A stretch of 64,000 nucleotides of DNA from Clostridium sp. BJN0013 (lineage in GTDB: Bacteria > Bacillota > Clostridia > Clostridiales > Clostridiaceae). Below are positions 14,167-61,620 of the stretch, in pieces. Position 1 is the first letter of the stretch; each line of letters begins with the position of its first letter. Location of the stretch: NCBI RefSeq assembly GCF_040939125.1, contig NZ_CP162495.1, forward strand, positions 1,178,001 through 1,242,000, given 5' to 3'. The notes beneath the pieces are model-generated. The model saw nothing but the letters and a program-made list of their open reading frames with translations. It was not told where the DNA came from and ran no database searches. Both the position numbers and the translations under genes were made by a program.

Positions 14167-14232
14167 ATCAAGTGATTCTAAGGTTCAAATGGATTTTGCT
14201 CACAGGAAATGTTTTCTTCATCTGAACTTATG
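14167..14232 (+). repeat. Interspersed structured repeat, copy A (left half only)
   Basis: Starts with the family left end ATCAAGTGATTC and contains the first hairpin (GGTTCAAATGGA ... TTCATCTGAACTT). The right half (second stem and the CTTCGGATAA end) is missing. It abuts the stop of the cheA remnant. Confidence 0.75.
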
Positions 14233-14359
14233 AGAAAACAGGTTAAGAAGTTTAAAGTGAAATAAATTTAAACAATAATACTTCTTTAGAGAAGAACTTT
14301 AAATATATGTGGGTCATAATACTTTAGAGATGTTATGACCCTAAAAAGAAACATATTTT

Positions 14360-14773
14360 TTATTCTGGAACAACTATGACTAATGTATTGGCATTTTTTA
14401 AAACCTTGTTAGTTACAGAACCAATTATTCTAGCAAGTCCTTTTTTGTTAGACTTAGTCATAATTATTATATCATAATTATCTAATTTTGATTTTAGTAA
14501 TATTTTGTCGGGAGCAGAACCAAAATCACTATACTTTTCGACTTCATAACCTTCAAGTTTTTTCTCGGCTTTGTCCAATATTTCATCCATGTCTTTTTGG
14601 GCTTGTTCTATAGTAGAATTTGTTATAGCCATGTCATTTGCCATAACGATCTCTCTAATAGTCATAAGAGTTATTTTCACCTTATCTGCTTTGAATAATT
14701 TTTTTAGCCAGTCAATAGAGTGCATACTTCGATCAGTTCCATCTAAGGGCACTAAAATTTTTTTCTTTGTCAT
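14360..14773 (-). CDS. Universal stress protein (UspA family)
   Basis: About 137 residues, single Usp domain: N-terminal KKILVPLDGTDRSMHSIDWL, middle DKILLKSKLDNYDIIIMTKSN, and C-terminal RIIGSVTNKVLKNANTLVIVVPE. The G-x2-G-x(9)-S/T ATP-binding pattern is only partly kept (IGSVTNKVLKNA), so ATP binding is uncertain. An in-frame GTG at 14782 is possible; ATG 14773 has AAAGGA ten bases upstream. It is paralogous to the next gene (similar start, linker and C-terminus), the product of a tandem duplication. Cytoplasmic; role in stress survival assumed from family. Confidence 0.88.
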   Translation of the reverse strand: MTKKKILVPLDGTDRSMHSIDWLKKLFKADKVKITLMTIREIVMANDMAITNSTIEQAQKDMDEILDKAEKKLEGYEVEKYSDFGSAPDKILLKSKLDNYDIIIMTKSNKKGLARIIGSVTNKVLKNANTLVIVVPE

Positions 14774-14874
14774 GTAATACACATCCTTTTCAATAATATG
14801 TTGTATAAGAATTTTTATATATTATATTTTCTGTGATATAAATATATTTTCTAAATAAGATTTTATAATGAAAT

Positions 14875-15285
14875 TTATTCTGGAATAATGGCAACTAAGG
14901 TATTTGCATTTTTTATAATTTTACTGGTTACAGAGCCAATCATTCTGTCCAAAGCTGTTTTTGTAGATCTTGTCATAACTATCATATCAAATTTATCCTG
15001 TTCTGCTTTTTTCAAAATTTTATCATCGGCATATCCAAAGGTAAAGTATTTTTCCACTTCATAACCCTCAAGTTCTTTTTCTGCCTTGTCTAAAACTTTA
15101 TGGCTTATTTGTTCAGCCTTGTACATTTTATCCTTTATCATGGTATCTCTTGCCATAAACATTTCTACAACATTCATGAGAGTTACTTGTATTTCATCTT
15201 TTTCAAATAATTTTTTTACCCAATCAAGAGAGTGCATACTTCGATCAGTGCCGTCTACTGGTATTAAAATTTTTCTTTTTGCCAT
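14875..15285 (-). CDS. Universal stress protein (UspA family), tandem paralogue
   Basis: About 136 residues with the same layout as its downstream neighbour: KRKILIPVDGTDRSMHSLDWV, LEGYEVEKYFTFGYADDKIL, RMIGSVTSKIIKNANTLVAIIPE. Start ATG 15285 follows AAAGGA; an in-frame codon at 15294 is less likely. The two genes are about 100 bases apart on the minus strand, each with its own ribosome site of nearly identical sequence, which supports recent tandem duplication. A promoter could lie in the A/T-rich leader 15300-15420, but no strong -35/-10 pair stands out. Confidence 0.88.
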   Translation of the reverse strand: MAKRKILIPVDGTDRSMHSLDWVKKLFEKDEIQVTLMNVVEMFMARDTMIKDKMYKAEQISHKVLDKAEKELEGYEVEKYFTFGYADDKILKKAEQDKFDMIVMTRSTKTALDRMIGSVTSKIIKNANTLVAIIPE

Positions 15286-15454
15286 GTAAAACACATCCTT
15301 TTCAATTATTTATTTTAAGTTTATAGCAATTGGCGCCCTATGTCTATTATAACGTTTTCTAAATAAAAGTATAATCCTTTGAATTTTATAATACAAGTAA
15401 TTGTTTTTATATTTTTCGGAAAATACCCCAGTGTGAATAATGATTTAGTCATAT

Positions 15455-15919
15455 TTAGGGGCTTATTTTATTAAATAGTTTTAAACCTAGGGCAATCAAT
15501 CCTGAGGTTATCATAGGACCTACAGGAACACCGCCTAAAAAAGCAGCAGCAATTACTGCGCCCAAAATTAAAGCAGGCATAATTTCACTGTGACCTTGAA
15601 TAGTCAAGTAGTTCATACCAAGTCCACTTAAGTAAGTTGTAAAAAGGGAAACTAACAGGGCAAATATCCCAAGCCATGAGGTGAAGACATTTCTAATGCT
15701 TATATAGCCTACTTTTCCGTCGGCAATAGGTATTAAAATAGATGCTATAAGTATTACTAATCCTAAGAATAATCCATTTTCTTGTAAGTAGGGAAATATA
15801 AATTTATCTGCATTCAAAAGCTTTAAAATTAAAAGAAAACAGGTGGCTAATGCCACAGAGTTAGCTTTTCCAAGGACAGAAGCAGTTAATATTATTATTA
15901 ATATAATAGTGGATTCCAA
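15455..15919 (-). CDS. UPF0756 (YeaL/DUF441) membrane protein
   Basis: 154 residues, four or five membrane spans: IILIIILTASVLG, VALATCFLLILKLL, GLFLGLVILIASILIPIADG, IFALLVSLFTTYLSGLGMNYL, MPALILGAVIAAAFLGGVPVGPMITSGLIAL. The GxxxGPMITSG end and size are those of the UPF0756 family. Function is unknown; the family sits in the cytoplasmic membrane. Start is TTG 15919, with AAGGAG about ten bases upstream. It lies upstream of, and is co-oriented with, the two Usp genes, but a gap of ~170 bases and separate leaders make an operon uncertain. Confidence 0.85.
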   Translation of the reverse strand: MESTIILIIILTASVLGKANSVALATCFLLILKLLNADKFIFPYLQENGLFLGLVILIASILIPIADGKVGYISIRNVFTSWLGIFALLVSLFTTYLSGLGMNYLTIQGHSEIMPALILGAVIAAAFLGGVPVGPMITSGLIALGLKLFNKISP

Positions 15920-16130
15920 TTTGGTTCATCTCCTTAATTAATAAGTATAACTGTTAGTAAACAGTTATATTTGAGAAAATATATGATTTAAAATGTTTAA
16001 ATATGATGATAACTAATATAGTTAATTTTAATTTTTTATGAAGAATAATAATATATTTTTTACGTATAATTTAATAAAAAAGAAATTATTTAATAGAATT
16101 ATTGAAATATAAGTTATGGTGAAGGTATAA

Positions 16131-16256
16131 AATGATTCAGAGGTTCAGATGGAGCTTGCCTATGAGGAATGCTTTTTCTATTTGAACCTTAGAAGAACTT
16201 ATAAAATGCACGCAGTAGTGCTTATCTTCCAGGTAGTACTAGATAATTACCGCCTT
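16131..16256 (+). repeat. Interspersed structured repeat, copy B (degenerate right end)
   Basis: Contains the first hairpin (GAGGTTCAGATGGAG ... TCTATTTGAACCTTAG), the linker GAAGAACTTATAAA and GCAGTAGTGCTTATC, all diagnostic of the family. The right end departs from the consensus after CTTATCTTCC. It lies in the 450-base gap before the gene at 16371. The rest of that gap is A/T-rich with no gene. Confidence 0.75.
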
Positions 16257-16370
16257 TCAATAAATAACTAGTATTTACAATAAAGCAGGAAATTTGCTGT
16301 GATTTATAGTATTATAGTATTAAAGGTAGTCATAATTATACCTTTAATTATATTATAAGGAGGAATTTAT

Positions 16371-16943: not shown

Positions 16944-17208
16944 ATTATAAAATATAAATTATTTTTGTGTACATATAATAAAAAGTAAAGATTTATATAC
17001 TTAATAATTTTAAAAAAAGAGATAAGAAATATAAAAATAGTTCCTCCCTAAATAAAAATTTTATGAAATTATTATTTTAATTTAAGATAAATTTTCAAAA
17101 TACGATAAAAAATATAGAATTATTTATGGCATATTTTACCCTATTATATGCAATAATTCAAAAGCCAACAGGGAAGTGGCTTAACATCTATAACAGGGAG
17201 GTAGAATT

Positions 17209-18336: not shown

Positions 18337-18402
18337 TTGAAGAAAAATAAAATTATATTACAGGTAGTTTTATTAATGATTTAATTGGCTGGAAAAATTA
18401 GA

Positions 18403-19121: not shown

Positions 19122-19160
19122 AAAAGTAAGTACCTGTTGTTTAGGGTGCTTATTTTTGTT
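19122..19160 (+). terminator. Probable terminator in gene-poor gap
   Basis: AAAAGTAAGTACC pairs with GGGTGCTTATTTTT (G-U pairs included) around a loop TGTTGTTTA and ends in a T-rich tract. The transcript it would end is unknown. Confidence 0.55.
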
Positions 19161-19186
19161 TTAGAAAAGCTTAGTTAATGGAATAT

Positions 19187-19215
19187 TGTGGATAATGTGA
19201 ATAAACTGTGGATAA
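19187..19215 (+). other. Cluster of three DnaA boxes
   Basis: Three 9-mers match the DnaA-box consensus TTATNCACA on the minus strand: TGTGGATAA (19187-19195), TGTGAATAA (19196-19204), TGTGGATAA (19207-19215). They are in one orientation, spaced 9 and 11 bp, about one helical turn. Neither dnaA nor dnaN nor a plasmid rep gene is nearby. Confidence 0.65.
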
Positions 19216-19561
19216 GTTGTTGGTAAGTTAAGGATTGTCTTCGAATGACTTGGTCTCATAGGCAAACTCCGCTTGAATGTAAGAATTACTCGATAGGTGT
19301 GTTTTTGAAAGGCAGCTTTGAGTGCATTGAATTTCTGCCAGAGGATATCGGTCTGTCAGTTTTTGCAAATTCATGAGATCATTTAAAAATTTTAATTAAC
19401 ATTTCTCAAACATTTTTTAAGCAACTTGCAAACGATTCATTAGTAAGGTAGGTACCATCCAATATATATAAATTTATCTTCAGTTAATTTTATGACGTTA
19501 ATATAACAGCATCTGGAGATAATATAAAAATTTTAAATTCAAGGAAAGAGAGGAAATTAAT

Positions 19562-24891: not shown

Positions 24892-25221
24892 TTGAAATCT
24901 TATGCGGAAATTATTATAACTCCACAGGAACTACGTTTATATGAAATATTAAATAAAAGAATTGTAATAGGAAAAAGTGAGGATATATTAATAGAGGGAA
25001 AAGTCTTGGATTCAAATTATAATCCAGTAGAGGGAGCAGTTATTGGCATTAAAAGTATAAATTACAATTATAGACCTCCTAAAGAAACAGAAATTGGATA
25101 TGCAATTACCAATAATTCTGGAGCATATGCCATAAATATTGAAAAAATTCATAATATTAACTATGAGTTGTATGTATATGAACCAATAATTGAACCCTGT
25201 TCAGAATCAAGTGATTCTTAG
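24892..25221 (+). CDS. Small beta-sandwich protein; 3' end supplied by a repeat
   Basis: 109 residues from TTG 24892, which has GGAGGG 8 bases upstream; a GTG at 24865 is in frame but has no ribosome site. Core: EDILIEGKVLDSNYNPVEGA, VIGIKSINYN, TEIGYAITNNSGAYAINIEK, YELYVYEPI. Same carboxypeptidase-regulatory-like pattern as its neighbours. The last residues (SSDS) and the stop codon TAG are encoded by the left end of repeat copy C, so insertion of the repeat has replaced the original C-terminus or stop. Confidence 0.65.
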   Translation: MKSYAEIIITPQELRLYEILNKRIVIGKSEDILIEGKVLDSNYNPVEGAVIGIKSINYNYRPPKETEIGYAITNNSGAYAINIEKIHNINYELYVYEPIIEPCSESSDS

Positions 25222-25406
25222 GTTCAGGTGGAGTCTGCCATAAAGAAATACTTATCTCCAACTGAACCTTATTAACAGTATTCTTAGTGTCTTTAGCACT
25301 TAGAATACGTTATCCTTTAGGGGAAGAACTTATCCAGACGCGTAGCAGTGCTTATCTCCCACCTTGAAGAGGGCGGGAGTGTTAGCAATGGTAGCGCTCG
25401 GGTAAA
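25206..25406 (+). repeat. Interspersed structured repeat, copy C (long form, 201 bp)
   Basis: Left end ATCAAGTGATTCTTAGG; first hairpin GGTTCAGGTGGAG ... CTCCAACTGAACC; the optional module with stem GTATTCTTAGTG/GCACTTAGAATAC; GAACTTATCC; then AGTGCTTATCTCCCACC...GGCGGGAGTGTTAGCAATGG; right end GCGCTCGGGTAAA. It is the same length as copy D and shares its module order. Confidence 0.88.
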
Positions 25407-36808: not shown

Positions 36809-36842
36809 TTTAAAAATAAGAAATTTTAATAATTTAAAGTTT

Positions 36843-36938
36843 TATAGGGTTCTGCAGTTTGAAATTGATAAATTGCTCTGGTCCAAGATAAAACGCACAG
36901 TTTGCTGTGTCCACGGAAGGATAAAAGCCTGGGAGATA
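36843..36938 (+). promoter_or_regulatory. Guanidine-I (ykkC) riboswitch
   Basis: Conserved blocks in order: TATAGGGTTCTGC, CTGGTCCAAGA, AAAACGCACAG ... CTGTGTCCACGGAA, GGATAAAAGCCTGGGAGA. These are the ykkC (guanidine-I) signatures. The family senses guanidinium and switches on exporters. A terminator overlaps the last block and a gdx-type exporter remnant follows, which is the classic target. Confidence 0.92.
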
Positions 36939-37137: not shown

Positions 37138-37863
37138 ATGAGAAAAAAATTTTTTGTAATGTTCTTAGTTTTAATTTGTTTAATTGCTGTAAGTTTTAAA
37201 CTTTTTACGCACAAAAATGTGTTTTACAGCAAAAATACAACAAAGGTGAAAACTAAGAATACAGATGGTGAAAAAAAGAGTGAAACAATTGATGAAAAGT
37301 TAAATAAAAGAATAGTATTAATAAATTCAGACAAAGATAAAGATGGCATAAAGGATCAAAAAGATATAGTACTTGGAGCAAGAAAGGAAGCAGATAAAAA
37401 GGTAAAATATAAAGAGGGCTATTATATAGGTGGATATCCTCCAGAAAATGAAGGAGTATGTACTGACTTAGTATGGAGAGCTTTTAAAGATGCAGGGTAT
37501 AATCTAAAAGATATGGTAGATGAGGATATAAGAAATTATCCTGGTGATTATGAGAAAATTGAGGGTCAGCCAGATCCCAATATAGATTTTAGAAGGGTGG
37601 CTAATCTTTATGTTTATTTTAAAAAATATGCAGCCAGTATTACTACTGAGTTGAAACCTAATGATATAGAGAATTTAAAGGAATGGCAGCCAGGAGATAT
37701 TGTAACCTTTGAGCACAGTGAACATATAGCTATAGTTTCTGATAAAAGGAGAGCAGATGGTATTCCATACATAATACATAATTCACCACCTTATGCTAGA
37801 GAAGGTGATGAAATTATGTATTGGATGCCTAGAATAACAGGTCATTTTAGATTCCCGAAATAA
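37138..37863 (+). CDS. DUF1287 exported protein
   Basis: 241 residues. N-terminal signal/anchor (KKFFVMFLVLICLIAVSFKLF), a Lys/Thr-rich linker, then the DUF1287 domain: GGYPPENEGVCTDLVWRAFK, DAGYNLKDMVDEDI, DFRRVANLYVYFKKYA, LKEWQPGDIVTF, HIAIVSDKR, IIHNSPPYAREGDE. The Cys in GVCTDLVWRAF and His in EHIAIV resemble an NlpC/P60-like Cys-His pair, so a cell-wall hydrolase is possible, but the family is uncharacterised. RBS AAGGAGG. It could be read from the guanidine-riboswitch transcript. Confidence 0.85.
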   Translation: MRKKFFVMFLVLICLIAVSFKLFTHKNVFYSKNTTKVKTKNTDGEKKSETIDEKLNKRIVLINSDKDKDGIKDQKDIVLGARKEADKKVKYKEGYYIGGYPPENEGVCTDLVWRAFKDAGYNLKDMVDEDIRNYPGDYEKIEGQPDPNIDFRRVANLYVYFKKYAASITTELKPNDIENLKEWQPGDIVTFEHSEHIAIVSDKRRADGIPYIIHNSPPYAREGDEIMYWMPRITGHFRFPK

Positions 37864-38028
37864 TAGCAAGATCAGAGAATATGCATAATTAAACTAGGGG
37901 ATTTGCCATCCTGAGTTTAATGCTAGCCAGATCGTTGTATGTCTAATGGATAGTTATCTCTCCATATAGTTTTCAGATAATGTATAATAGAGCAAAGAAA
38001 CAATAATACATACAAGGGGGCATCTAAT

Positions 38029-39744
38029 TTGAAAAACCATCATGAACTTGAAAAACTATTAATGTCTATAGATGGGCGTGGGTATTCTGCTTATAAAGAA
38101 ATAAAGGGAGCATATGATTTTGGAACTTATCAGCTTTTTGTTGACCATGTCCAGGCAGATCCATATGCTCCTCCATCTAAATCTCATATTGTAATTAACT
38201 GTGATATTACAGGCATTCCAAATGATCTGCTTGATTCCAAAGATAAAATAACAGCTGTTTCGGATTTTCTAACGAGAGTTTTCTGGAAGAATATCCAGCA
38301 CTTAAATAAGGGTATCAGTGGAATAGGGGGTAGTGGACTTTTGCTAATTGATCATTGTGGGCAAGAAATGCTTGAGAGGACAGCTGTTTTGATCAAAAAT
38401 AACCGTATTGAAGTGAGATTTGAAATCGGTCTGCCCGCTGTAGGAAGACGAGTTTTGGGTAAAGCTGCCAACCGTATCTTTCAGGAGATCCTTCCTAAGA
38501 TAGTAGACAGATCCCTGTTTTATAGAAATATTGATCAAAAAGCATTAAAAAATCAGGTAAATTTAATTATGGATCAAATGTATATTCGAAAGGAATTAGA
38601 GAGAAAGGGTCTTGTTGCTTTTATTGGTAATGGTTCCATTTTGCCAAGAGAAAGTGGTATATCAGATAAGCTTTTGTCTAAAGGCAAAATTCCATTTATA
38701 AGCCCGGAAAAATTTGAAATAGAAATTTCACTGCCTTATAATGGTAAAATCACAGGAATGGGAATACCCCGGGGAATAACTTTAATTGTAGGTGGAGGTT
38801 ATCATGGAAAATCTACATTGTTGAAGGCACTTGAACTTGGTGTATATAATCATATTCCCGGTGATGGCAGAGAATTTGTGATTACCAGGCAAGATGCAGT
38901 AAAAATTCGTGCTGAAGATGGACGAAATGTGGAAAAAGTTAATATTAGCACCTTTATCGGCAATTTGCCGGGAAATAAAGATACTTTTAAATTTTCTACG
39001 GAAAATGCCAGTGGAAGTACTTCTCAAGCAGCAAATGTTATGGAAGCTTTAGAAGTGGGGACATCACTTTTATTGATTGACGAGGATACCTCTGCTACCA
39101 ATTTTATGATACGAGATGGACGGATGCAAAAATTAGTTTCAAAAGATAAAGAACCCATAACACCTTTTATTGATAAGGTAAAATCATTATATGATGATAA
39201 TGGGGTTTCAACCATATTGATAGTTGGAGGTTCAGGGGATTATTTTGATGTGGCACACCAAATTATTATGATGGATGAATATGTGCCAAAGGATGTAACA
39301 AGTACTGCCAAAGAGATTGCAAATTCCCATGGATACATACGGGAACAAATCACAAATAGTAAATTTGGAGAAATTACACATAGGATTCCTTTAAAGGTGG
39401 GATTTTTAGGAACAGGGAAAGAAGATCGTATTAAGCCTAGAGGGAAATATAAGATTTCATATGGAAGAGAAATTATTGATCTTTCTGCTTTGGAACAATT
39501 AGTAGATGACAGCCAAACCAATTGCATTGCTGTAATGATTGATTTTTTGAGAAAACGTATATTGGACGATAGGGTATCTGTTTTTCAAGCTGTCAATAGA
39601 CTATATCAGCAGATAGAAAAATTTGGATTAGATTCTATTTCACCCTATACAGGTCATCCAGGTAATCTGGCACTGCCTAGGAAACATGAATTCTGTGCCG
39701 CTTTGAACCGTTACAGAGGATTAAGGGTAAAAATGTCAGAGTAA
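38029..39744 (+). CDS. Predicted ATPase of the ABC class (COG3044-like)
   Basis: 571 residues from TTG 38029 (AGGGGG upstream). Seen: LDRGY-like MSIDGRGYSAYKEIKGAYDF, DHVQADPYAPPSKSHI, a Walker A of form GGGYHGKSTLL, SGSTSQAANVMEALEVGTSL and Walker B LLLIDEDTSATNFMIRD, then TILIVGGSGDYFDVAHQIIM. No membrane domain: it is a soluble ABC-class ATPase, a widespread family of unknown role. Likely monocistronic. A repeat copy starts at its very stop codon (TAA 39742-39744). Confidence 0.88.
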   Translation: MKNHHELEKLLMSIDGRGYSAYKEIKGAYDFGTYQLFVDHVQADPYAPPSKSHIVINCDITGIPNDLLDSKDKITAVSDFLTRVFWKNIQHLNKGISGIGGSGLLLIDHCGQEMLERTAVLIKNNRIEVRFEIGLPAVGRRVLGKAANRIFQEILPKIVDRSLFYRNIDQKALKNQVNLIMDQMYIRKELERKGLVAFIGNGSILPRESGISDKLLSKGKIPFISPEKFEIEISLPYNGKITGMGIPRGITLIVGGGYHGKSTLLKALELGVYNHIPGDGREFVITRQDAVKIRAEDGRNVEKVNISTFIGNLPGNKDTFKFSTENASGSTSQAANVMEALEVGTSLLLIDEDTSATNFMIRDGRMQKLVSKDKEPITPFIDKVKSLYDDNGVSTILIVGGSGDYFDVAHQIIMMDEYVPKDVTSTAKEIANSHGYIREQITNSKFGEITHRIPLKVGFLGTGKEDRIKPRGKYKISYGREIIDLSALEQLVDDSQTNCIAVMIDFLRKRILDDRVSVFQAVNRLYQQIEKFGLDSISPYTGHPGNLALPRKHEFCAALNRYRGLRVKMSE

Positions 39745-39944
39745 TCAAGTGATTCTTAGGCTCAGGTGGAGTTTGCTCATAAGGAATACCTTTCTCCACC
39801 TGAACCTTATTAACAGTATTCTTAGTGTCTTTAGCACTTAGAATACATTATCCTTTAGGGGAATAACTTATCCAGGGGCGCAGCAGTGCTTATCCCCCAT
39901 TTTAAAGAAGATGGGGGTGTTAGCAATGGTAGCCTTCGGATAAA
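39744..39944 (+). repeat. Interspersed structured repeat, copy D (long form, 201 bp)
   Basis: Left end ATCAAGTGATTCTTAGG; first hairpin CTCAGGTGGAG...CTCCACCTGAACC; module GTATTCTTAGTG/GCACTTAGAATAC; AACTTATCC; AGTGCTTATCCCCCAT...ATGGGGGTGTTAGCA; right end GCCTTCGGATAAA. Same length and order as copy C. It begins at the last base of the ATPase stop codon. Confidence 0.9.
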
Positions 39945-39982
39945 AAATTAGTTTTAAAAATAAATGAAAGGTAGAGAAGATA

Positions 39983-41032
39983 ATGAATACACTTTTTACA
40001 CCACGTAAAATTAAAAATCTAGAAATAAAAAATAGAATTGTACTACCTCCTATGGTTTGTTTTAATTTTGCAGATAAGAATGGTTTTGTATCAAAGAAAA
40101 ATATATATCACTATGAAAGAATAGCTAAAAGCGGCACAGGATTAATAATTGTGGAAGCAGCAGCAGTTTCCGAAAATGGAAAAATATTTCCAGATCAGCT
40201 GGGAATTTGGTGTGATGATTATATAGAGGGATTGGGTAAAATAGCGCACATTTGTCATACATATAATGCAAAAGTTATTCTCCAGCTTCATCATGCAGGA
40301 CTTAAAGCCTCCAAGCTTGTTAATAAAGATACTATTACATCTTCTGATTATATTCATAGAAATATGTCTGCCAGGGCTATGACAAAGCATGAACTCCATT
40401 CAATACAACAGGATTTCATAAGTGCTGCCCTTAGAGCCCAAAAAGCTGGTTTTGATGGAGTTGAATTTCATGGAGCCCATTCCTATCTTATGACACAGTT
40501 TTTTTCAACTAAGATAAACAAGCGAGTGGATGAGTATGGCGGAAGCTTAGATAATAGATTGAGATTTACAATGGAGATTCTTCAAGGAGTTAAACAAAAG
40601 GTTGATGCTTCTTTTGTAGTTGGAATTCGGATGGGTTGTAATGAGAGTGATTTGGAAACCAGCATTAATATGGCAAAAAAATTTGAAGCTTCAGGTATGG
40701 ATTATATTCATGTTTCTACGGGATATGATAATACACCAATTAAAGAAGAAGTACCAAAAGATTTTCCCTGTAACTGGATTGTATATGGCGCAGCTAAAAT
40801 AAAAGAACAGGTAAATATACCTGTAATTGCAGTAAATTCAATTAAAACAAAAGAGCAGGCCAATTATTTAATTGATAATAATTTGGTGGATTTTGTTGCC
40901 ATAGGTAGAGCACAGCTTGCAGATCATGATTTTACAAGTCATATAAGAGAAGGAAAGAGTATTATTAAATGCTTAGGATGTAAACCCTGTAGGTGGTTCA
41001 CAAATGGAGATAATTGTCCAAGAAAATTTTAG
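39983..41032 (+). CDS. NADH:flavin oxidoreductase (old yellow enzyme family)
   Basis: 349 residues, TIM-barrel FMN domain: LFTPRKIKNLEIKNRIVLPP, QLHHAGLKASKLV, FDGVEFHGAHSYLMTQFFST, NKRVDEYGGSLDNRLRFTME, FVAIGRAQLADHDF. The protein ends with CLGCKPCRWFTNGDNC, a four-Cys cluster (C-x2-C-x2-C-x8-C) where larger homologues bind [4Fe-4S] before a second NADH domain; that second domain is absent here. Substrate unknown: enoates or enones are typical. RBS AAAGGTAGAG; single gene behind repeat D. Confidence 0.88.
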   Translation: MNTLFTPRKIKNLEIKNRIVLPPMVCFNFADKNGFVSKKNIYHYERIAKSGTGLIIVEAAAVSENGKIFPDQLGIWCDDYIEGLGKIAHICHTYNAKVILQLHHAGLKASKLVNKDTITSSDYIHRNMSARAMTKHELHSIQQDFISAALRAQKAGFDGVEFHGAHSYLMTQFFSTKINKRVDEYGGSLDNRLRFTMEILQGVKQKVDASFVVGIRMGCNESDLETSINMAKKFEASGMDYIHVSTGYDNTPIKEEVPKDFPCNWIVYGAAKIKEQVNIPVIAVNSIKTKEQANYLIDNNLVDFVAIGRAQLADHDFTSHIREGKSIIKCLGCKPCRWFTNGDNCPRKF

Positions 41033-41110
41033 TTTTTTAAATAAATCGGGTAAGTATTTTTAAATTAAATATACTATAAAGAGTAATTTATAAACAGAAG
41101 GTGAATTTTA

Positions 41111-42463
41111 ATGGAGTTTAAAAATAAATCATTATTTAAAATGAATGAAATTCAAATTTTAATATTGGGGTTTTTGTTAATAATTATAGTAGGTGCCATT
41201 TTACTATGGCTTCCTATATCTTCTGAAAATCATACATATACCAATTTTATAGATTCACTATTTGTAGCTACATCTGCAACCTGTGTAACAGGGCTTATAA
41301 CAGTGGATACAGGAACTCATTGGAACTATTTTGGAAAAACGGTAATTTTGGCTTTAATTCAGGTGGGCGGACTTGGATTTATGGCGTTTTCCACTCTTAT
41401 TGCGTTGATTTTAGGAAGAAAAATCACATTAAAGGAAAGACTGTTAATTCATGAGTCACTTAATTCTTTTAATATACAGGGGCTTGTAAAAATGTCAAAG
41501 AACATATTATTGTTTACTTTTTTAGTAGAAGCTGTAGGAGCAGTTGTTTTGTCTTCTCAGTTTGTTCCTCAATTTGGGCTTAGCAGAGGACTTTTTTATT
41601 CAATTTTTCACTCTGTGTCTGCATTCTGTAATGCTGGCATAGACTTAATTGGAGAGGGTAGAAGTTTAGTACCTTATTATAATAATTTTACAATAATATT
41701 TACTATAAGTATATTGATTATCATTGGAGGATTAGGATTTTATGTATGGCAGGAAATATATAATTTAAGTTTTAAGCATATAAAGAGACTTTCTCTTCAT
41801 TCAAAGGTTTGTATAACAATGGCTGTTGTACTTTTAGCCTCTGGAACCATATTGTTTTTTTTATTTGAATTTGACAATCCAGCTACTATGAAACATATGA
41901 CTTCAGGAGATAAGCTGTTATCTTCATTTTTTGCTTCAGTTTCAGCGAGAACTGCAGGATTTAATTCGATTTCCATTTCTGATATGAGTGAAAATAGTAA
42001 ATTTTTAACTATTGTATTTATGTTTATAGGTGGAGCTCCAGGCTCTACAGCAGGGGGGATAAAGACAACCACTGCAGCTTTAATTATAATGACAGCTGTA
42101 TCTGTAATAAAAGGCAGGCAGGAGACTGAAATTTATAAAAGAACCATAAAAAAAGATCTGGTATACAAAGCTATTGTGATATTTATAATTTATGTAATAT
42201 TAATTTCTATATCTTCTTTGATACTAGGTGTAACTGAGAAAAATAAATCCATGGAAACCATAATTTTTGAGTGTGTATCGGCTATTGGAACTTGTGGATT
42301 GAGTATTGGAATTACACCTAGTTTGAGTGCTATGGGAAAAATGATTATAATTATAACTATGTTTTTTGGGAGGTTAGGTGGTCTTACTGTAATATTATCC
42401 ATGATAAACAGGAAGATTCCTAAATCTATAAAATATCCCGAGGATAAAATATTAATTGGATAA
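41111..42463 (+). CDS. ktrB: Potassium uptake channel subunit KtrB/TrkH
   Basis: 450 residues with four repeated membrane-pore-membrane units. The selectivity-loop motifs are visible: TSATCVTGLITVDTG, SVSAFCNAGIDLIG, SVSARTAGFNSISI and SAIGTCGLSIGI. This is the membrane subunit of the Ktr/Trk potassium system. The next gene, 24 bases downstream, is its regulatory partner KtrA, so both are translated together. Length and motifs are complete. Confidence 0.93.
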   Translation: MEFKNKSLFKMNEIQILILGFLLIIIVGAILLWLPISSENHTYTNFIDSLFVATSATCVTGLITVDTGTHWNYFGKTVILALIQVGGLGFMAFSTLIALILGRKITLKERLLIHESLNSFNIQGLVKMSKNILLFTFLVEAVGAVVLSSQFVPQFGLSRGLFYSIFHSVSAFCNAGIDLIGEGRSLVPYYNNFTIIFTISILIIIGGLGFYVWQEIYNLSFKHIKRLSLHSKVCITMAVVLLASGTILFFLFEFDNPATMKHMTSGDKLLSSFFASVSARTAGFNSISISDMSENSKFLTIVFMFIGGAPGSTAGGIKTTTAALIIMTAVSVIKGRQETEIYKRTIKKDLVYKAIVIFIIYVILISISSLILGVTEKNKSMETIIFECVSAIGTCGLSIGITPSLSAMGKMIIIITMFFGRLGGLTVILSMINRKIPKSIKYPEDKILIG

Positions 42464-42487
42464 AATTTGAAAAACGGAGATGATCTT

Positions 42488-43141
42488 ATGAAAAAAAAGC
42501 AGTATTTAGTTGTGGGCCTGGGGAGGTTTGGAAAATCAATAGCTAGAACTCTCTATGAACTTGGAAATGATGTACTTGCAGTGGATTCAAGAGAAGATAA
42601 TGTTCAGGATATAACTCCTTATGTGACACAGGCAGTTGAGGCAGATGCCACTGAGGAGGAGAATCTTAAGGCACTTGGGGTGAATAATTTTGATGTAGCT
42701 ATAATAATAGGTGCCGACATTCAAAGTAGTGTTATAGTTACCTTATTGTTAAAGGAAATGGGTATGAAATTTGTACTTGCCAAGGCCAATACAGATTTAC
42801 ATGCAAAGATTCTATATAAAATAGGAGCTGATAAAGTTGTTTTCCCTGAAAAAGATACAGCTGTTAGAATTGCTCATAATCTGGTATCAAATAATATGTT
42901 GGATTTTATAGCATTATCCCCTGAATATAGAGTAGCGGAAATACTATGTATAAAAAAATGGATTGGAAAAAATTTAGAGCAATTGAATATAAGGTCTAAG
43001 TATGGAATAAATATTATAATGATAAAAAGAGGGGACGATATAAATGTATCACCTGCTTCAGATTTTGTATTTTTGGAAGGGGATATAGTTGTAGCTATAG
43101 GGGGACAAAAAGAAATTGAAAAATTGGAAAATAGCATTTGA
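42488..43141 (+). CDS. ktrA: Potassium uptake regulator KtrA (RCK domains)
   Basis: 217 residues: N-terminal RCK_N Rossmann fold YLVVGLGRFGKSIARTLYEL and DVLAVDSREDNVQDI, AVEADATEEENLKALG, KTDLHA-like ANTDLHAKILYKIGADKVVF; C-terminal RCK_C domain ending EGDIVVAIGGQKEIEKLE. It binds ATP/ADP and c-di-AMP in characterised homologues and gates KtrB. Start ATG 42488 with GGAGATG upstream; TTG 42467 is in frame but lacks a ribosome site. Confidence 0.93.
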   Translation: MKKKQYLVVGLGRFGKSIARTLYELGNDVLAVDSREDNVQDITPYVTQAVEADATEEENLKALGVNNFDVAIIIGADIQSSVIVTLLLKEMGMKFVLAKANTDLHAKILYKIGADKVVFPEKDTAVRIAHNLVSNNMLDFIALSPEYRVAEILCIKKWIGKNLEQLNIRSKYGINIIMIKRGDDINVSPASDFVFLEGDIVVAIGGQKEIEKLENSI

Positions 43142-46665: not shown

Positions 46666-46815
46666 ATCAAGTTATTTAGAGGTTCAGATGAAGTTTGCAC
46701 ATGAGAAATGCTTTTCCTCTATCTGAGCCTTAGAAGAACTTATAAAGGAACATATAAGTGTTTATCCCCCACCTTAAAGAAGCTGGGGGTATTAGTTAAT
46801 TTTATTATAGGATAA
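46666..46815 (+). repeat. Interspersed structured repeat, copy E (short form, 150 bp)
   Basis: Left end ATCAAGTTATTTAGAGG; hairpin GGTTCAGATGAAG...CTCTATCTGAGCC; GAAGAACTTATAAAGG; GTGTTTATCCCCCACC...GCTGGGGGTATTAG; right end ATAGGATAAA. Exactly the same length as copy H. Confidence 0.85.
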
Positions 46816-46870
46816 ATTAAAGCATTATGGATCTAAATTACAAAAGTCAACTATATCTAGGTACCACAAG

Positions 46871-47341: not shown

Positions 47342-47649
47342 ATGTCAATCAGAACAATAAAAAAAGTCATAAAAGGCAATATAGAAAAAGATGGAGCTGG
47401 AGTAAAGCTTGTCAGAATACTGTCTATTTGATAGAGAAATCAAAAATCCAATATACGAAAAAAGTACTGTTTTTTGAAAGTGATGATAAAATGGAAATAA
47501 AGTCAGGTAAAGAAAAAATTCATTTTATTTTATTTACAGGAAAATCTTTAAATGAACCTATTGCATGGGGAGGGCCTATTGTAATGAATTCAAATGATGA
47601 AGTTACTGAAGCTTTTAATGAACTTGATAATGAAACTTTTATCAAATGA
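47342..47649 (+). pseudogene. Pirin-family gene with large internal deletion
   Basis: ATG 47342 (AAGGA upstream) gives SIRTIKKVIKGNIEKDGAGV, KLVRILSI and a stop, matching the pirin start. From 47428 another frame gives IHFILFTGKSLNEPIAWGGP, IVMNSNDEVTEAFNELDNET, matching the pirin C-terminal end. The middle ~170 residues, with the metal-binding His residues, are missing. The last codons and TGA (47647-47649) come from repeat copy F, which starts at 47641. Confidence 0.8.
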
Positions 47650-47750
47650 TTTGAAGGCTCAGATGGAATTTGCTCATAAGTAATGCTCTTTTCCATCTGA
47701 GCCCTAGAGGAACTTATAAGGGATACAGTAGTGTTCATACTGGAGAATGT
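47641..47750 (+). repeat. Interspersed structured repeat, copy F (right end degenerate)
   Basis: Left end ATCAAATGATTTGAAGG; hairpin GGCTCAGATGGAA...TTCCATCTGAGCCC; GAGGAACTTATAAGG; AGTAGTGTTCATACTGG, then loss of consensus. It supplies the stop codon of the pirin remnant. Confidence 0.78.
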
Positions 47751-47851
47751 AAAAACTAATTGAAAGTGGAAAGGTAAAAATACAGAGGCAAATTGAGAAT
47801 TGTGAGGGAAATGGAAGTATTAAAATAAAATATGGAAATGGGGAGAATTTT

Positions 47852-55241: not shown

Positions 55242-56676
55242 CTAACCTACGGACAGCTAATAACCATATAAATGGGAATTAAAATTTGTATAGAAATATT
55301 CTGAAAATAATAAAAAGCACCAATTCATAGTATAAAATTGATTTGCAGCACAATTTTACTAGAAAAGGTGGCTTATTATGATCAATGATCAAGAATATAT
55401 TACTACAGAATTAAAAAAAATACTAGAAAAAATGATAATTTTATCATCATACCGTTTAAATAACTTAATAGCTATAGTTGTAGGAATAATAGTTTCACAG
55501 TCAGTTATATTATCCAAAATATCTCAAGAGCTGAAGGATTCCTATTCTTCAGGTACAGAAGAAAGTAAAATTAAAAGATTGAGAAGATTTTTAACTAACA
55601 AGGCTATTAATTGTGAGAAAATATATGAATTCTTCGCATATAGGTTACTACAAAAGTATAAAAGTCATTCAAAGAAAATATATATAATTTTTGATCACAC
55701 AACTATTATAGATAAATTTGTTATATTACAGTTTTCTTTAAAAGTGGGAAGAAGGGCAGTTCCCCTGTGGTATAAGATGTTCTTATATAAAGATGAGGGA
55801 AGTAAAGATTTCAAGTATATTAAACAAGGACTTAATTTTATACATAAAATAGTAGTTCCCTATAATTTTGATGTTACAATTTTAGCAGACAGGGGATTTA
55901 AAAGTGTCGATTTGTTTAAGTTTATAGATAAGACTTTAAAATTCAAGTATTGTATCAGGTGTACAAAAAATTTAAAAATATCAATATGCGGTAAACCAAA
56001 TATAAAAAAGCTGGGAAATATAATACCTTTAAAGGGAAAGACAAGACACTTTTACAATGTAAAATTAACATCTAAAAAATATATATGCAATCTGGCAGTC
56101 TGCAGGGCAGAAAGTTCTGATGATACCTGGTTCATAGCAAATAATTTAGAACAGACCTTTTCAATTAGAGAATATAAAAAAAGATTTGATATAGAAGAAA
56201 TGTTTAAAGATTTTAAATCTGGTGGGTTCAATTTAGAAGGTACCTGGACACATAATATCCAGTATGCAAGAACCTTATATTTATGCATTTGTATAGCTTA
56301 CTGCTGGATGATAACCCTTGGAACATCTTGTACAAAAGATAAGAAAAATAAACTTATTGGGGCTACAAAAACATTGAGAGACAAACAGGTAAGAATCTAC
56401 AGCTTATTTAGGGCTGGAGTTAAATGGTTCAAAAGATGTTATTATTCTTTAAGAAATACCTATTATTTAAAAATTGCTTTTACATTATATGAATATTAGT
56501 TCCTTTTATTTACATTGACATAAAACACTGTTATAAGTATAAATTTATACTTACATTTTAATCAATTTATTCAATAATAATCAATTAGGAATATGATTAA
56601 ATCCTTGAGTATAAACATCAACATCAATCATTATACTTTAATGGAATTTTATATAAATTTACTGTCCGTAGGTCAG
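55242..56676 (+). mobile_element. IS4-family insertion sequence, complete
   Basis: Ends carry inverted repeats CTAACCTACGGACAG (left) and CTGACCTACGGACAG (right, read inward), 14 of 15 identical. A 10-bp direct repeat AGAGTTAAAT flanks it (55232-55241 and 56677-56686), the target duplication. One transposase gene lies inside. The copy looks intact, and the perfect duplication indicates a fairly recent insertion. Confidence 0.92.
55378..56499 (+). CDS. IS4-family transposase
   Basis: 373 residues, DDE type. Catalytic segments: IYIIFDHTTIIDKF (first Asp), VTILADRGFKSVDLFKF (second Asp, DRGF) and the Y-(2)-R-(3)-E-(6)-K signature in YKKRFDIEEMFKDFKSGGF (Glu). The start is ATG 55378, preceded by AAAGGTGG. 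The frame is complete and ends 177 bases before the right end of the element. The long 3' untranslated part inside the element holds no other gene. Confidence 0.9.
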   Translation: MINDQEYITTELKKILEKMIILSSYRLNNLIAIVVGIIVSQSVILSKISQELKDSYSSGTEESKIKRLRRFLTNKAINCEKIYEFFAYRLLQKYKSHSKKIYIIFDHTTIIDKFVILQFSLKVGRRAVPLWYKMFLYKDEGSKDFKYIKQGLNFIHKIVVPYNFDVTILADRGFKSVDLFKFIDKTLKFKYCIRCTKNLKISICGKPNIKKLGNIIPLKGKTRHFYNVKLTSKKYICNLAVCRAESSDDTWFIANNLEQTFSIREYKKRFDIEEMFKDFKSGGFNLEGTWTHNIQYARTLYLCICIAYCWMITLGTSCTKDKKNKLIGATKTLRDKQVRIYSLFRAGVKWFKRCYYSLRNTYYLKIAFTLYEY

Positions 56677-56869: not shown

Positions 56870-56889
56870 TATATATGAGGTGAAAAATT

Positions 56890-57636: not shown

Positions 57637-57645
57637 GTTATAGTG

Positions 57646-57677: not shown

Positions 57678-57785
57678 AGTTCATATTTGGATGTATTTTT
57701 CTGTAGAGAATAATAAGAATAAATAATGGGGATAATTAAAATTATTATTAGGATAACTATAAAATCTTTGTTATAAGCTTTGATT

Positions 57786-58232: not shown

Positions 58233-58430
58233 AAGAACACATCCTTTTAATTTATTGTAAAATATCAATATATGTTTATTATAACCGTAATGGAAGTGTA
58301 CTAAAATATTAAATTATTTCTCTATATTAGAATTATCTGATATTATTTAAAGTGTATAAAAAATTAATCGATTTATTTAATAATAAACTTTTTAAAATTT
58401 TGTATTTTAAAATTTAAAGAAGGAGGCATA

Positions 58431-58754: not shown

Positions 58755-58783
58755 AAATAGATTTAATTCAAGGGGGATTGTAG

Positions 58784-59563
58784 GTGGAAAATCAAAGCAG
58801 AGTACAACAAAATTTTGGGAAAAATGCTTCTAATTATAGGTATAGTTCAGTCCATAATAATGCACGGGATCTTGATAGAATGATAAAATTATTGGATCCA
58901 CAACCTGAAGATAGGGTTTTAGATGTGGCAACTGGTACGGGTCATACAGCTATAAAACTTGCACAATACACTCAACAAGTTGAAGCGATTGACATTACAC
59001 GTGAAATGTTACATGAAGCAAAAGAACAGTCATATGAAAATGGAATTACCAATATAGAATTTCGTATTGAAGATGTTCATAATATGAAAATTCCAGACAA
59101 CACATTTCATATTGTTGTCTGTAGATTAGCTGCCCACCACTTTTCAAATATTAAAACAGCCCTTAAAGAAATGTGTAGAGTTCTAAAAATAGGAGGGAAA
59201 TTATATATTTTAGATTGTTCTGTAGTTGATGGATATGAGTCCGAAAAGATGTTTAATGAGATTGAACTATTGAGGGATAGTTCTCATGTATTTTCATATT
59301 CACCATGTTTATGGACTAAATTACTAAGAGAACTTCCTTTAGAAGGAGGACAGTTGAATTTTCATAAAGTTTCGTATGAATTACCTCAATGGTTTGAGCG
59401 TATGAAAACAGAACAAAAAAATAGGGATAAAATATTTGGAATTTTAGATAATTTATCCCAAAGAGTTAAAGAGTATTATCCTTATAGTGAGAATTATATA
59501 ACTACATATAGAGTAGAAATTCTGAAAAAGAAAATTCAAGCGAACGGTATTTGCTGTAACTAG
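58784..59563 (+). CDS. Class I SAM-dependent methyltransferase
   Basis: 259 residues from GTG 58784 (GGGGG upstream). Motif I VLDVATGTGHTAIKLAQYT, motif post-I VEAIDITREMLHEAKEQ, NIEFRIEDVHNMKIPDNTF, VVCRLAAHHFSNIKTALKEM, RVLKIGGKLYILD. This is the UbiE/Methyltransf_11 type. The substrate cannot be read from sequence; such proteins act on small molecules. C-terminal ~90 residues are helical and lack a DNA- or RNA-binding signature. Confidence 0.88.
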   Translation: MENQSRVQQNFGKNASNYRYSSVHNNARDLDRMIKLLDPQPEDRVLDVATGTGHTAIKLAQYTQQVEAIDITREMLHEAKEQSYENGITNIEFRIEDVHNMKIPDNTFHIVVCRLAAHHFSNIKTALKEMCRVLKIGGKLYILDCSVVDGYESEKMFNEIELLRDSSHVFSYSPCLWTKLLRELPLEGGQLNFHKVSYELPQWFERMKTEQKNRDKIFGILDNLSQRVKEYYPYSENYITTYRVEILKKKIQANGICCN

Positions 59564-59582
59564 TTTTTAAAAGAAGAAGTTA

Positions 59583-60083
59583 CTATAAGGATATTTTTAG
59601 AAAATGCATCTTAATAGCCCAGTCTTTTTTATAGGGTATGTTTAAATGGTTTGGAGTATGTTGCGATATTAAGGGATAATCTTTGTCAAATGAAGTTATA
59701 ATTGCCGAGTGTTGAATTTTACCTCTTTTATTTTTATAAAAGATTATATCGCCAACATCAAGCATTGATACAGAATCAACTTCTGTACCTTTGGCACCAT
59801 ATAATTGTTCATCAGCATTGATTTTCAAATACCAGTAAAGTGAACCGGCTACAGTCCATGAGACCGACCACTTGAGGCCGCTGTACCACCATTGATTTTT
59901 ATGTGAAGACACCATTGGAGCTCCACCGGCTTTAAGACATTGGGATATAAAATTTGTACAGTCACCTCCATTATCACCTTGTACAAGGAAATATTTATAA
60001 GCAGGATTTGGTGATTTAGCATAGTTTACAGCATAATTTACAGCTTCTATCCTAGAGTAAGATAAATTATTTCTATAATTCAT
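59583..60083 (-). CDS. Putative amidase-domain (Amidase_6-like) protein
   Basis: 166 residues: YSRIEAVNYAVNYAKSPNPA, GDNGGDCTNFISQCLKAGGA (likely catalytic Cys), WWYSGLKWSVSWTVAGSLYW, VGDIIFYKNKRGKIQHSAII (likely His). The DCTNFISQCL and HSAIIT motifs are those of the Amidase_6 family of putative cell-wall amidases. There is no signal peptide, so it may act inside the cell or at sporulation. The ribosome site (GGAGCAATT) is weak. It converges with the methyltransferase gene. Confidence 0.82.
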   Translation of the reverse strand: MNYRNNLSYSRIEAVNYAVNYAKSPNPAYKYFLVQGDNGGDCTNFISQCLKAGGAPMVSSHKNQWWYSGLKWSVSWTVAGSLYWYLKINADEQLYGAKGTEVDSVSMLDVGDIIFYKNKRGKIQHSAIITSFDKDYPLISQHTPNHLNIPYKKDWAIKMHFLKISL

Positions 60084-60184
60084 AATTGCTCCACAAAATT
60101 GTTTACTTTATAATTTATGTGAATATGTAGTAGAAAATTACTTCGTATTTAACAGTAAATTGTATTTATCACTCTAAGTTTTTT

Positions 60185-60316
60185 ATCAAGTTCTTCTAGG
60201 GTTTAGGTGAAGTTTTCTCTCCATCTGAAATTTAGAAGAACTTATAAAGGAACGAACAGTGTTCATCCCCTACTTTGAAGAATATGGGATGTTAGCTAAT
60301 TGCAGTGTTCGGATAA
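60185..60316 (+). repeat. Interspersed structured repeat, copy G
   Basis: Left end ATCAAGTTCTTCTAGGG; hairpin GGTTTAGGTGAAG...CTCCATCTGAAATT; GAAGAACTTATAAAGG; CAGTGTTCATCCCC...ATGGGATGTTAG; right end GTGTTCGGATAAAA. It ends about 20 bases before the stop codon of the minus-strand DtxR gene. Confidence 0.82.
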
Positions 60317-60335
60317 AAATAGAGAAATGTATATT

Positions 60336-60704
60336 TTACTTTTTAAAATATTCTAGCATGGCAAGAACAGATTCATCGCTGATAACGTGTTCTATAGCAC
60401 AGGCATCCTTATCGGCAATATCTGAATCAACATCTAAAATTTTAATAAGAAATTTACGAATAACATGATGCTTTTTAGAAGTTTGCTCTGCCAGTTTTTT
60501 TCCGGCTTCAGTCAAAAATATTTCTTTGTATTTTTCATTTGTAATCAATCCTTTTTCGCTTAGGGTAGTCATTGCTCTATTAGTACTGGCTTTTGTAACG
60601 CCTAGGCGGTAGGCTATATCAGATACTCTGACTCCTGACTCTTCTTTTGAAAGTTCATATATTGCTTCTAGATAATTTTCCATTGTATAGGTTAATTTAT
60701 TCAT
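60336..60704 (-). CDS. DtxR/MntR-family metalloregulator
   Basis: 122 residues: TYTMENYLEAIYELSKEESG, VRVSDIAYRLGVTKASTNRA (helix-turn-helix), MTTLSEKGLITNEKYKEIFL, AGKKLAEQTSKKHHVIRKFL, DACAIEHVISDESVLAMLEY. Metal ligands of the MntR type are recognisable (Glu and His in AIEHVIS, His in KKHH). It has no SH3-like third domain, so it resembles MntR or short DtxR forms sensing Mn2+ or Fe2+. AAGGAG lies upstream of ATG 60704. Target genes are not evident in the window. Confidence 0.9.
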   Translation of the reverse strand: MNKLTYTMENYLEAIYELSKEESGVRVSDIAYRLGVTKASTNRAMTTLSEKGLITNEKYKEIFLTEAGKKLAEQTSKKHHVIRKFLIKILDVDSDIADKDACAIEHVISDESVLAMLEYFKK

Positions 60705-60778
60705 TATTATTGGTCTCCTTATTAAGAATAGTTTTAACAGTTCTATGGTATAAATTTTAATAGTTTATTGATAGAATC

Positions 60779-61240
60779 TTAAATAAAGTCCAGAAGTTTA
60801 AGGTTAAATACATTTTCATCTGTGATTCTTTCCATTGAAGGGAAAAGAACTTCTACAAGTATCATTTCAATAAGAAATTGAACTTTGCCGCCAATAAAGT
60901 GGCTTGTATGTGCTGTAGCAGAACTAAGTCTACTTCCAATGCTTATATGGAAATGAGGAAGTATTTGACCAGTTTCCTTATTATAGGCTATAGTGCCGCA
61001 GCCAAAGGATTCTACATTTTCGAAATATGCTGGTGAATTCAGCATTGGTGCTTCAGGATGCTCAGTTTTGTTACAGGTACCAACTATAGTTATTTCACTG
61101 AAATCTCCAGAGAAGAAGGGAACGTATCCTTGCTTTACATTGTTTACACTACAGAATTCTTCAAGTTCAGTCATAAAATCTTTTCCATGCTCAAATCTGA
61201 TTCCAAAAGTTCTTCCTATTTTTAATTCTGATGATATCAT
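60779..61240 (-). CDS. PPC/DUF296-domain protein
   Basis: 153 residues: LKIGRTFGIRFEHGKDFMTE, EEFCSVNNVKQGYVPFFSGD, FSEITIVGTCN, FGCGTIAYNKETGQILPHFH, ISIGSRLSSATAHTSHFIGG, VQFLIEMILVEV. The fold and metal-site His pattern (HFHISIG, HTSHF) belong to the plant-and-prokaryote-conserved domain, found in AT-hook DNA-binding proteins and as single domains in bacteria. Role unknown. It is upstream of and co-oriented with the DtxR gene, 74 bases apart. Confidence 0.85.
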   Translation of the reverse strand: MISSELKIGRTFGIRFEHGKDFMTELEEFCSVNNVKQGYVPFFSGDFSEITIVGTCNKTEHPEAPMLNSPAYFENVESFGCGTIAYNKETGQILPHFHISIGSRLSSATAHTSHFIGGKVQFLIEMILVEVLFPSMERITDENVFNLKLLDFI

Positions 61241-61470
61241 TTTTTATCCTTTCTTATCATATATTAATTATTTTTTCTATAAAGTAATTATATTATTTAA
61301 TGTGTTTTTTTACAATTTTTTTGCAGCAGACTTCACGTGAACCCAAGAATCACTTTATAGAATGGATGTAAATTTTGGCTTTAGGTGTGCATTCATTATA
61401 GAAGGATTTTTCACTGGGCTTTAATTGTACCAATTTTATTATAAGAACATATATTGTAAATAGGCTAATT

Positions 61471-61620
61471 ATCAAGTGATTCTTAGGTTCAGGTGGAGTT
61501 TGCCTACAAGGATTACTTTTCTCCATCTGAACCTTAGAAGAACTTATCCAGGAGCGTAACAGTGCTTATCCTCCACTTTGAAGAAGATGGGGGTGTTAGC
61601 ACTGGTAGCCTTCGGATAAA
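61471..61620 (+). repeat. Interspersed structured repeat, copy H (short form, 150 bp)
   Basis: The clearest short copy: ATCAAGTGATTCTTAGG; GGTTCAGGTGGAG...CTCCATCTGAACC; GAAGAACTTATCC; CAGTGCTTATCCTCCAC...TGGGGGTGTTAGCACTG; GCCTTCGGATAAA. CAGTGCT pairs with AGCACTG, and the earlier TTATCC can pair with the terminal GGATAA. It lies 40 bases before the collagen-like gene. Confidence 0.92.

Follow-up and report, generated by a model that had tools for sequence, protein, structure and literature searches.

A mobile, modular two-hairpin element in Clostridium sp. BJN0013 and other Clostridiaceae

A family of two-hairpin repeats

A stretch of 64,000 nucleotides (nt) from Clostridium sp. BJN0013 (contig NZ_CP162495.1, positions 1,178,001 to 1,242,000; the window in what follows) carries a structured repeat that a sequence-only reading had described in at least eight copies and interpreted as IS200/IS605 miniature elements with an omegaRNA-like end. 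The eight copies do belong to one family: those at 61471, 39744, 25206, 46666, 60185, 16127, 47641 and 14167 all match our covariance model, with scores falling from 182.6 to 53.4 bits. Its alignment comprised 31 sequences, namely 27 genome loci (one being the 61471 copy) and four more window copies, so that five of the eight were used in it. The repeat is real and larger than first stated; the element is about 150 nt long and consists of two long adjacent hairpins (H1 and H2), and a form of about 200 nt contains an additional 51-nt hairpin (Hx).

The best window copy, of the 150-nt form, lies at 61471-61620 (+; 182.6 bits), a range that includes the 3' ATAAA, and its site is an empty ATAAA in the related genome G004. 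H1 (AAGTGATTCTTAGGTTCAGGTGGAG .. CTCCATCTGAACCTTAGAAGAACTT) occupies 61474-61545 (+) and H2 61546-61617 (+), the latter closed by ATCC/GGAT, or by TTATCC/GGATAA if the foot of H1 is open; both hairpins are given by the fold and by cross-species covariation. The predicted fold of this copy has a free energy of −63.7 kcal/mol (z −6.9 relative to shuffles). Empty sites and flank counts identify its last five letters, ATAAA at 61616-61620 (+; TTTAT on the other strand), as a target pentamer that was there before insertion. The 201-nt form is found at 39744-39944 (+; 160.9 bits; Hx at 39810-39860, +) and at 25206-25406 (+; 149.3 bits; Hx at 25272-25322, +), and both sites are empty in G004 and in a second relative, G011, with the target of the 25206 copy read as AGAAA. 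A further 150-nt form lies at 46666-46816 (+; 140.4 bits), and a 133-nt form with a shortened H1 loop at 60185-60317 (+; 121.3 bits), where G004 has an element of the same length and G011 a remnant. The other three are a diverged copy (16127-16264, +; 96.7 bits), a partial copy (47641-47778, +; 84.7 bits), of which the profile aligns positions 1-101 of 151 only, and a relic that is essentially H1 alone (14167-14266, +; 53.4 bits; profile positions 1-66). Two weak relics lie on the minus strand, at 19160-19294 (E 0.006; inverted repeat I3) and 61272-61358 (E 0.057); the remaining minus-strand matches overlap plus copies and are their palindromic arms.

With up to 3 mismatches allowed, the left-end 17-mer is found at six places in the window, where 0.32 would be expected by chance, and four of the six are among the eight copies. 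Only five copies are near full length, the right end GCCTTCGGATAA is exact in two of the eight, and the extra 51-nt hairpin of the 25206 and 39744 copies had gone unreported. At two mismatches the right-end 12-mer is near chance in the window (6 found, 2.76 expected).

A genome-wide search with the covariance model returned at least 150 copies in the 4,101,691-bp genome, and the element is thus very abundant, with at least one copy per 27 kb. From 2,871 candidates these 150 were the ones that received a score, the lowest being 94.8 bits; 114 are of about 150 nt, 34 of about 200 nt and 2 intermediate. In 350 kb around the window the profile found 29 full-length copies, 10 left-end-only and 4 right-end-only pieces. 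Nearly all copies lie between genes (62 of the 65 listed copies tested, which had enough flank; approximate open reading frame (ORF) calls, 81% coding), in tandem (40), divergent (12) and convergent (10) contexts, and in tandem pairs 22 run with the genes and 18 against. No Rfam model matched over the repeat copies, and no match was obtained in viral, plasmid and phage collections, the viral scan being for one exact 27-mer. No description of the repeat was found in the literature searched, which was open-licence PMC only and probably lacks the articles reporting the genomes of these species.

Presence and absence between close relatives

Mobility was assessed against G011 and G004, which are about 95% identical over parts of window 38000-43000. 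Thirteen of the 29 full-length copies in the 350-kb block have both flanks alignable in one or other relative, and nine of these are absent there (gap 0-15 nt). For three (1238185, 1242030 and 1304762) one relative has an element of about the same length, and the last falls in a deletion (1367431); G011 has short remnants at 1243332 and 1238185. In the reverse direction, 9 of 12 full-length G011 and G004 copies have alignable flanks; one G004 copy (2928861) is cleanly absent from G011, and the other eight are filled, remnants or not clean. The sites of the element therefore differ between close relatives, although no moving enzyme was found.

Comparison of filled and empty sites gives the insertion rule. 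Filled sites read left|ATCAAG...GG|ATAAA|right and empty sites left|ATAAA|right, the fixed ends of filled sites being ATCAAG on the left and GGATAAA on the right. Among ten empty sites, ATAAA is read at four (1217744, 1239471, 1331597 and G004 2928861), GTAAA, ATCAA, AGAAA, ATGAA and ATATT at one each, and one is unreadable (1318708); the empty site of 1217744 is one base shorter in G004 than in G011, and that of 1331597 has one extra A. In 50 copies the last five letters are almost invariant, each conserved in 46 to 49 of the 50, and both flanks are AT-rich and show nothing further. An overlap of exactly 5 nt, with the letters ATAA(A/G) in common, is seen in four tandem pairs, of which G048 has three and G025 one. 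The 3' end of the element thus adjoins an ATAAA-like pentamer that predates the insertion (on the other strand, the element directly follows TTTAT), with no evident target duplication; a 2-nt duplication of AT would be a formal alternative parse of the site. The element is mobile, recently active, non-autonomous and modular. Its target rule resembles IS200/IS605 insertion with the left and right ends of the sequence-only reading swapped.

Distribution among species

The element is present in 69 of 225 genomes of the order (the BJN0013 genome included), spread over 21 of 56 genera, and 68 of the 69 belong to one family; a smaller survey found it in 23 of 59 genomes, again counting our own. Four genomes of the same genus (G001, G002, G008 and G012) gave no match at E 1e-8, and at E 1e-4 two matches appeared in G001 and one in G012. 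An exact 24-mer (29 stretches) occurs in C. ljungdahlii, C. ragsdalei, C. peptidivorans, C. pascui, C. uliginosum, C. luticellarii, C. muellerianum, C. simiarum and isolate BL-3. Of these, C. ljungdahlii and C. ragsdalei are acetogens used in industry. Copies from these two species and from C. peptidivorans are 94-95% identical to one BJN0013 copy, whereas one 1.9-kb gene stretch of G005, deduced to be C. ragsdalei, is 72% identical to our genome, which suggests either horizontal spread or strong constraint on the active form.

Structure, covariation and decay

The fold and the covariation both pair the terminal GGATAA with the first TTATCC (61544-61549), and this pairing is the nested base of H2. 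The pseudoknot-like closure proposed between an internal TTATCC and the right end is not supported; the second TTATCC is not conserved, reading TTATCTCCC, GTCATCC or TTTACTCCC in other copies and species.

Covariation was evaluated on a cross-species set of 27 sequences chosen from several genomes, in which 92.8% of cells pair. Both sides change in 17 of the 46 named pairs, where shuffles average 13.3 and 9 of 500 are as high, and in 112 cells, where shuffles average 41.6 and none of 500 is as high; slid structures reached at most 23, a control that leans in favour of the structure because the latter was derived from the same 27 sequences. The stem changes are plain in the letters, with GGTTCAG/CTGAACC replaced by GACTCAG/CTGAGTC and CAGTGC/GCAATG by CAGCCGT/ACGGATG. 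The centre also covaries with the left end, as columns 5-76 are AU in 22 sequences and GC in 4, and columns 6-75 GC in 21 and CG in 5. RNAalifold, run on 31 mainly own-genome sequences, gave two-sided change in 1 of 16 pairs. The cross-species covariation implies a need for pairing and would not in itself imply movement by TnpA.

Stem mutations in BJN0013 copies are about even, with G.T at 144 and A.C at 150 in 70 copies, and these counts overturned an early impression that G.U was far above A.C in the plus orientation. Elsewhere the ratio was 33 to 32 (12 G011 and G004 copies), 25 to 12 (p 0.047; 32 copies at other loci), and 2:1, 11:8 and 9:7 in G034, G048 and G025, respectively. The cross-species excess comes from two pairs, being 85 to 35 with them and 43 to 35 without. 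The unpaired control is itself skewed (102 to 261) because unpaired C is rare; per-site rates are 0.124 (C>T) and 0.109 (G>A) in paired and 0.057 and 0.191 in unpaired positions, and the control thus leaves the folding strand undecided. Across own-genome copies, per-site change is 0.122 in paired columns and little higher, 0.144, in unpaired ones. We read these data as indicating that active lineages must fold, while inserted copies are mostly unconstrained.

Hairpin modules within the element

In all copies examined, Hx (51 nt) occupies the same position within the foot of H1, and of its 19 occurrences in 750 kb of three genomes 17 are in full copies and 2 in decayed ones. Over 31 Hx-bearing copies of several species, some of whose loci were picked because they resembled an Hx copy, pairwise identity averages 0.97 within Hx and 0.84 in the remainder, and Hx is the higher in all 465 pairs; the 14 own copies alone give 0.96 and 0.82. 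A quick tree was built from 123 copies after removal of Hx (35 carry it; five insert-bearing copies missed by the pattern were excluded), and on it the Hx label is scattered, needing 28 changes against a shuffled mean of 30.5 (26-34). A tree of H1 only needs 25 (shuffled 29.6; 24-35) and one of H2 only 29 (30.6). On the H1 tree the H2 type needs 14 changes (shuffled 29.6) and genome group 16 (33.8), both far below shuffled, so the trees are informative. One orthologous locus has Hx in G004 and lacks it in our genome. Hx offers a clean case of a hairpin apparently invading another element, and gene conversion between copies could be an alternative source of the same pattern.

A second module, Hy (~45-55 nt), occupies the H2 loop in C. 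ragsdalei, C. ljungdahlii, C. peptidivorans, C. luticellarii and others. Three of its 18 distinct occurrences are in other hairpin contexts, with the stem CTTAGTGGG/CCCACTAAG or similar (L064:6278-6319, L077:7600-7641 and L083:575-625), so the modules may be common to several element families. It is conceivable, if rather unlikely, that the repeat represents a new class of element, built of modular hairpins, whose carriers have no Y1, reverse transcriptase, IS110 or IS91 enzyme in common, and which is invaded by hairpins of about 50 nt (Hx at the H1 foot, Hy in the H2 loop) that would pass between copies at fixed sites as a mobile element inside a mobile element.

Search for a moving enzyme

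The BJN0013 genome has 15 Y1_Tnp matches, nine of which are IS200 copies, nearly identical to one another and preceded on the left by a T-run. When all 15 were scanned, a repeat was nearby only at the two matches that cover one split gene (3953532-3953872), between copies 3952896 (+) and 3954102 (−); this arrangement was considered as a REPtron and rejected, as the gene belongs to an IS200-like element that recurs without the repeat. In relatives, 30 of 45 Y1 loci were scanned and the element was near one, in G007 (L187:1468-2055 and 2040-2227), where its insertion into the 3' end of a longer Y1 gene provides that gene with its final codons and stop.

The two own TnpB matches (G000 532295-532495 and 1093119-1093319; L090 and L091) are IStron-like elements, 98% identical, with a group I intron (by eye) and TnpB and no long tnpA ORF in the shared 2.1 kb. 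Their ends do not match those of the repeat; the repeat adjoining one of them starts about 130 bp past its right end, and no repeat lies within 1.5 kb on each side of the other.

Other enzyme families were unevenly distributed. IS91-type Y2_Tnp has four own-genome matches (G000 2037436, 2133252, 3619142 and 1034984) and none in seven other genomes searched; it was rejected as the mover, its ends differing from those of the repeat. RVT_1 gave no match in the carriers G003 and G015, and IS110 (PF01548), with 34 own-genome matches, none in G025, G034 and G048. An autonomous partner was also sought in three same-strand pairs of solo H1 and solo H2, 1.5, 2.7 and 4.6 kb apart, and the ORFs they enclose look ordinary, with no transposase by eye. 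A classical miniature inverted-repeat transposable element of a DDE transposon was likewise dismissed, as the left ATCAAGTGATTCTTAGG and right GGTAGCGTTCGGATAAA are by inspection not inverted copies and no target duplication is seen. The present-day lack of an enzyme in the families tested, the only ones searched, may be compatible with one that was lost or that comes and goes. Once found, the mover would reveal either a new use of an HUH transposase or a new route of mobilisation. The window itself has a DDE_Tnp_1 transposase at 55378-56499 (+) and a fragment of an IS110-type transposase at 11787-12155 (−).

Other features of the window

Directly downstream of the best copy, 61653-63983 (+) encodes a collagen-like protein with long GxT repeats (by eye). 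Three riboswitches are present in the window: a Guanidine-I riboswitch at 36833-36937 (+), for which the next plus ORF (37138-37863) looks secreted and is not an obvious guanidine exporter (by eye); a cyclic di-GMP-II riboswitch at 1442-1528 (+), heading a type IV pilus-like gene cluster (by eye); and an S-adenosylmethionine riboswitch at 714-815 (−).

Possible routes of mobilisation

We favour, tentatively and at somewhat under an even chance, the interpretation that the repeat is a non-autonomous DNA element of Clostridiaceae, made of two adjacent hairpins and mobilised in trans in a HUH-type-like manner. The element inserts mostly between genes, 5' of an ATAAA-like pentamer, in either orientation and with no evident target duplication. 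Its folded single strand would be what the moving machinery recognises, so that active lineages would keep their pairing and inserted copies would mostly decay. The trans-acting enzyme may act like an IS200/IS605 or a repetitive extragenic palindrome (REP)-type HUH transposase; the central CTTATCC is predicted to pair with both ends, ATCAAG and GGATAAA, and the target might be chosen through the same pairing.

Several observations weigh against this interpretation. The ATAAA rule is inexact at five of nine readable empty sites. Stem pairing among own-genome copies, at 0.860, slightly exceeds that of shuffles (mean 0.843; maximum 0.848 of 200), so that either decay is not wholly free or source lineages differ, and source copies of different lineages could indeed cause such an excess. 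DNA parameters favour the plus-strand fold in 26 of 27 copies and RNA parameters in 24 of 27, whereas under IS200/IS605 polarity, which puts the target 5' of the element on the active strand, that strand has to be the minus one. Among the 15 Y1 and 2 TnpB loci of our genome, a transposase element with matching ends was not found, the comparison covering the ends of the nine IS200 copies, the tnpB element and one more Y1 element; failure to find a tnpA/tnpB element sharing an end was one of the outcomes that the sequence-only reading had named as refuting it. Four carriers (G003, G004, G015 and G025) have no Y1 match, which the other 9 of 13 searched relatives do have, and yet they list many copies: at least 52 each in G003 and G004, 45 in G015 and 41 weaker ones in G025. 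Orientation is no more favourable. With the terminus set at 2.05 Mb (GC skew changes sign between the 1.9 and 2.1 Mb samples) and the origin on the side where a dnaA-like ORF (by eye) starts at base 1, 63 of the 150 listed copies are oriented with the fork and 87 oppose it (p 0.06), and the 50 best-scoring show no lagging-strand bias (24 with, 26 against). The weaker 100 are skewed (39 with, 61 against; p 0.035), so a bias, if there is one, is weak and limited to the copies that have decayed further. Each replichore carries copies in both orientations, a second outcome that the sequence-only reading had named as refuting it, and the listed copies divide into 73 plus and 77 minus. That all copies face one way holds for the eight of the window, its two weak relics excepted, and this same-strand pattern is local. 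What survives of the assignment to IS200/IS605 miniatures is the miniature mobile element and an insertion logic that is alike with ends swapped; the shared orientation does not.

Some of the same facts would fit a two-hairpin element moved by a route other than Y1/HUH, such as an RNA intermediate or a so far unrecognised recombinase, which we regard as only a little less probable than the favoured reading. The Y1-less carriers, one of which (G004) holds the best-scoring copy among the matches listed, and the lack of a clear orientation bias are in line with it, as is the stabler fold on the plus strand with ATAAA at the 3' end, as in a primed RNA; yet no enzyme family tested is common to all carriers searched, given the gaps in RVT_1, IS110 and Y2_Tnp, and 5'-truncated copies are not in excess, left-end-only pieces outnumbering right-end-only ones in the 350 kb. 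Service by a REP-associated tyrosine transposase (RAYT, TnpA_REP), as for REP elements and REPINs, is improbable. High copy number, intergenic position, palindromy and tandem arrays in some species would suit it, and several carriers have longer Y1 proteins (~180-330 aa), which we take to be RAYT-like. However, the single repeat near a Y1 locus among the 30 scanned in relatives is an insertion in the gene's 3' end, the split Y1 gene near a repeat in our genome is part of an IS200-like element with its own surrounding sequence, and carriers lacking Y1 exist.

Two explanations would make the repeat an RNA. A dispersed functional RNA or cis-regulatory element is very unlikely: the stable fold, the covariation between species and the slight own-genome pairing excess could be so explained, but every gene context is occupied with copies running both ways in tandem pairs, the stems decay mostly freely within the genome, Rfam has no match, and presence differs between close relatives. 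The link to TnpB guide RNAs drawn by the sequence-only reading is barely credible. The genome does have two tnpB genes, and a target-side pentamer together with hairpins recalls IS200/IS605; against this, the tnpB element ends differ, the closure is nested with no pseudoknot, the second tnpB copy is without a repeat, and the neighbouring repeat of the first lies beyond the element's end. On the sequence evidence, the repeat family is not one of guide RNAs.

Comparison with known systems

Structured repeats of the BOX type in pneumococcus are built of modular hairpins with optional internal modules. They are like the present repeat in being modular, and differ in sequence, length, target and host. 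TnpB omegaRNAs are structured as well, and one repeat copy lies near a tnpB element; that element, however, contains no repeat sequence, the closure of the repeat is nested, and its copies mostly decay. REP, REPIN and bacterial interspersed mosaic elements with their RAYT are, like the repeat, abundant, intergenic and palindromic, with tandem arrays in some species, whereas no RAYT flanked by the repeat was found, its target is ATAAA, and its GTAG lies inside both arms of H2 and not at a 5' foot.

The palindrome-associated transposable elements (PATEs), miniature elements derived from IS200/IS605, resemble the repeat in having a hairpin at each end, a fixed pentanucleotide that flanks one side alone, no evident duplication of the target and no coding capacity. 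For the repeat no cognate element with shared ends was found, four carriers have no Y1 match, and there is no clear strand bias; as far as tested, it departs from IS200/IS605 miniatures in shared ends, available enzyme and strand bias. Hairpins of 20-25 nt and lagging-strand targeting are described in PMC6006769. The hairpins of the repeat are much longer than those of PATEs, with 22 and 24 named pairs, and its putative guide would lie between them.

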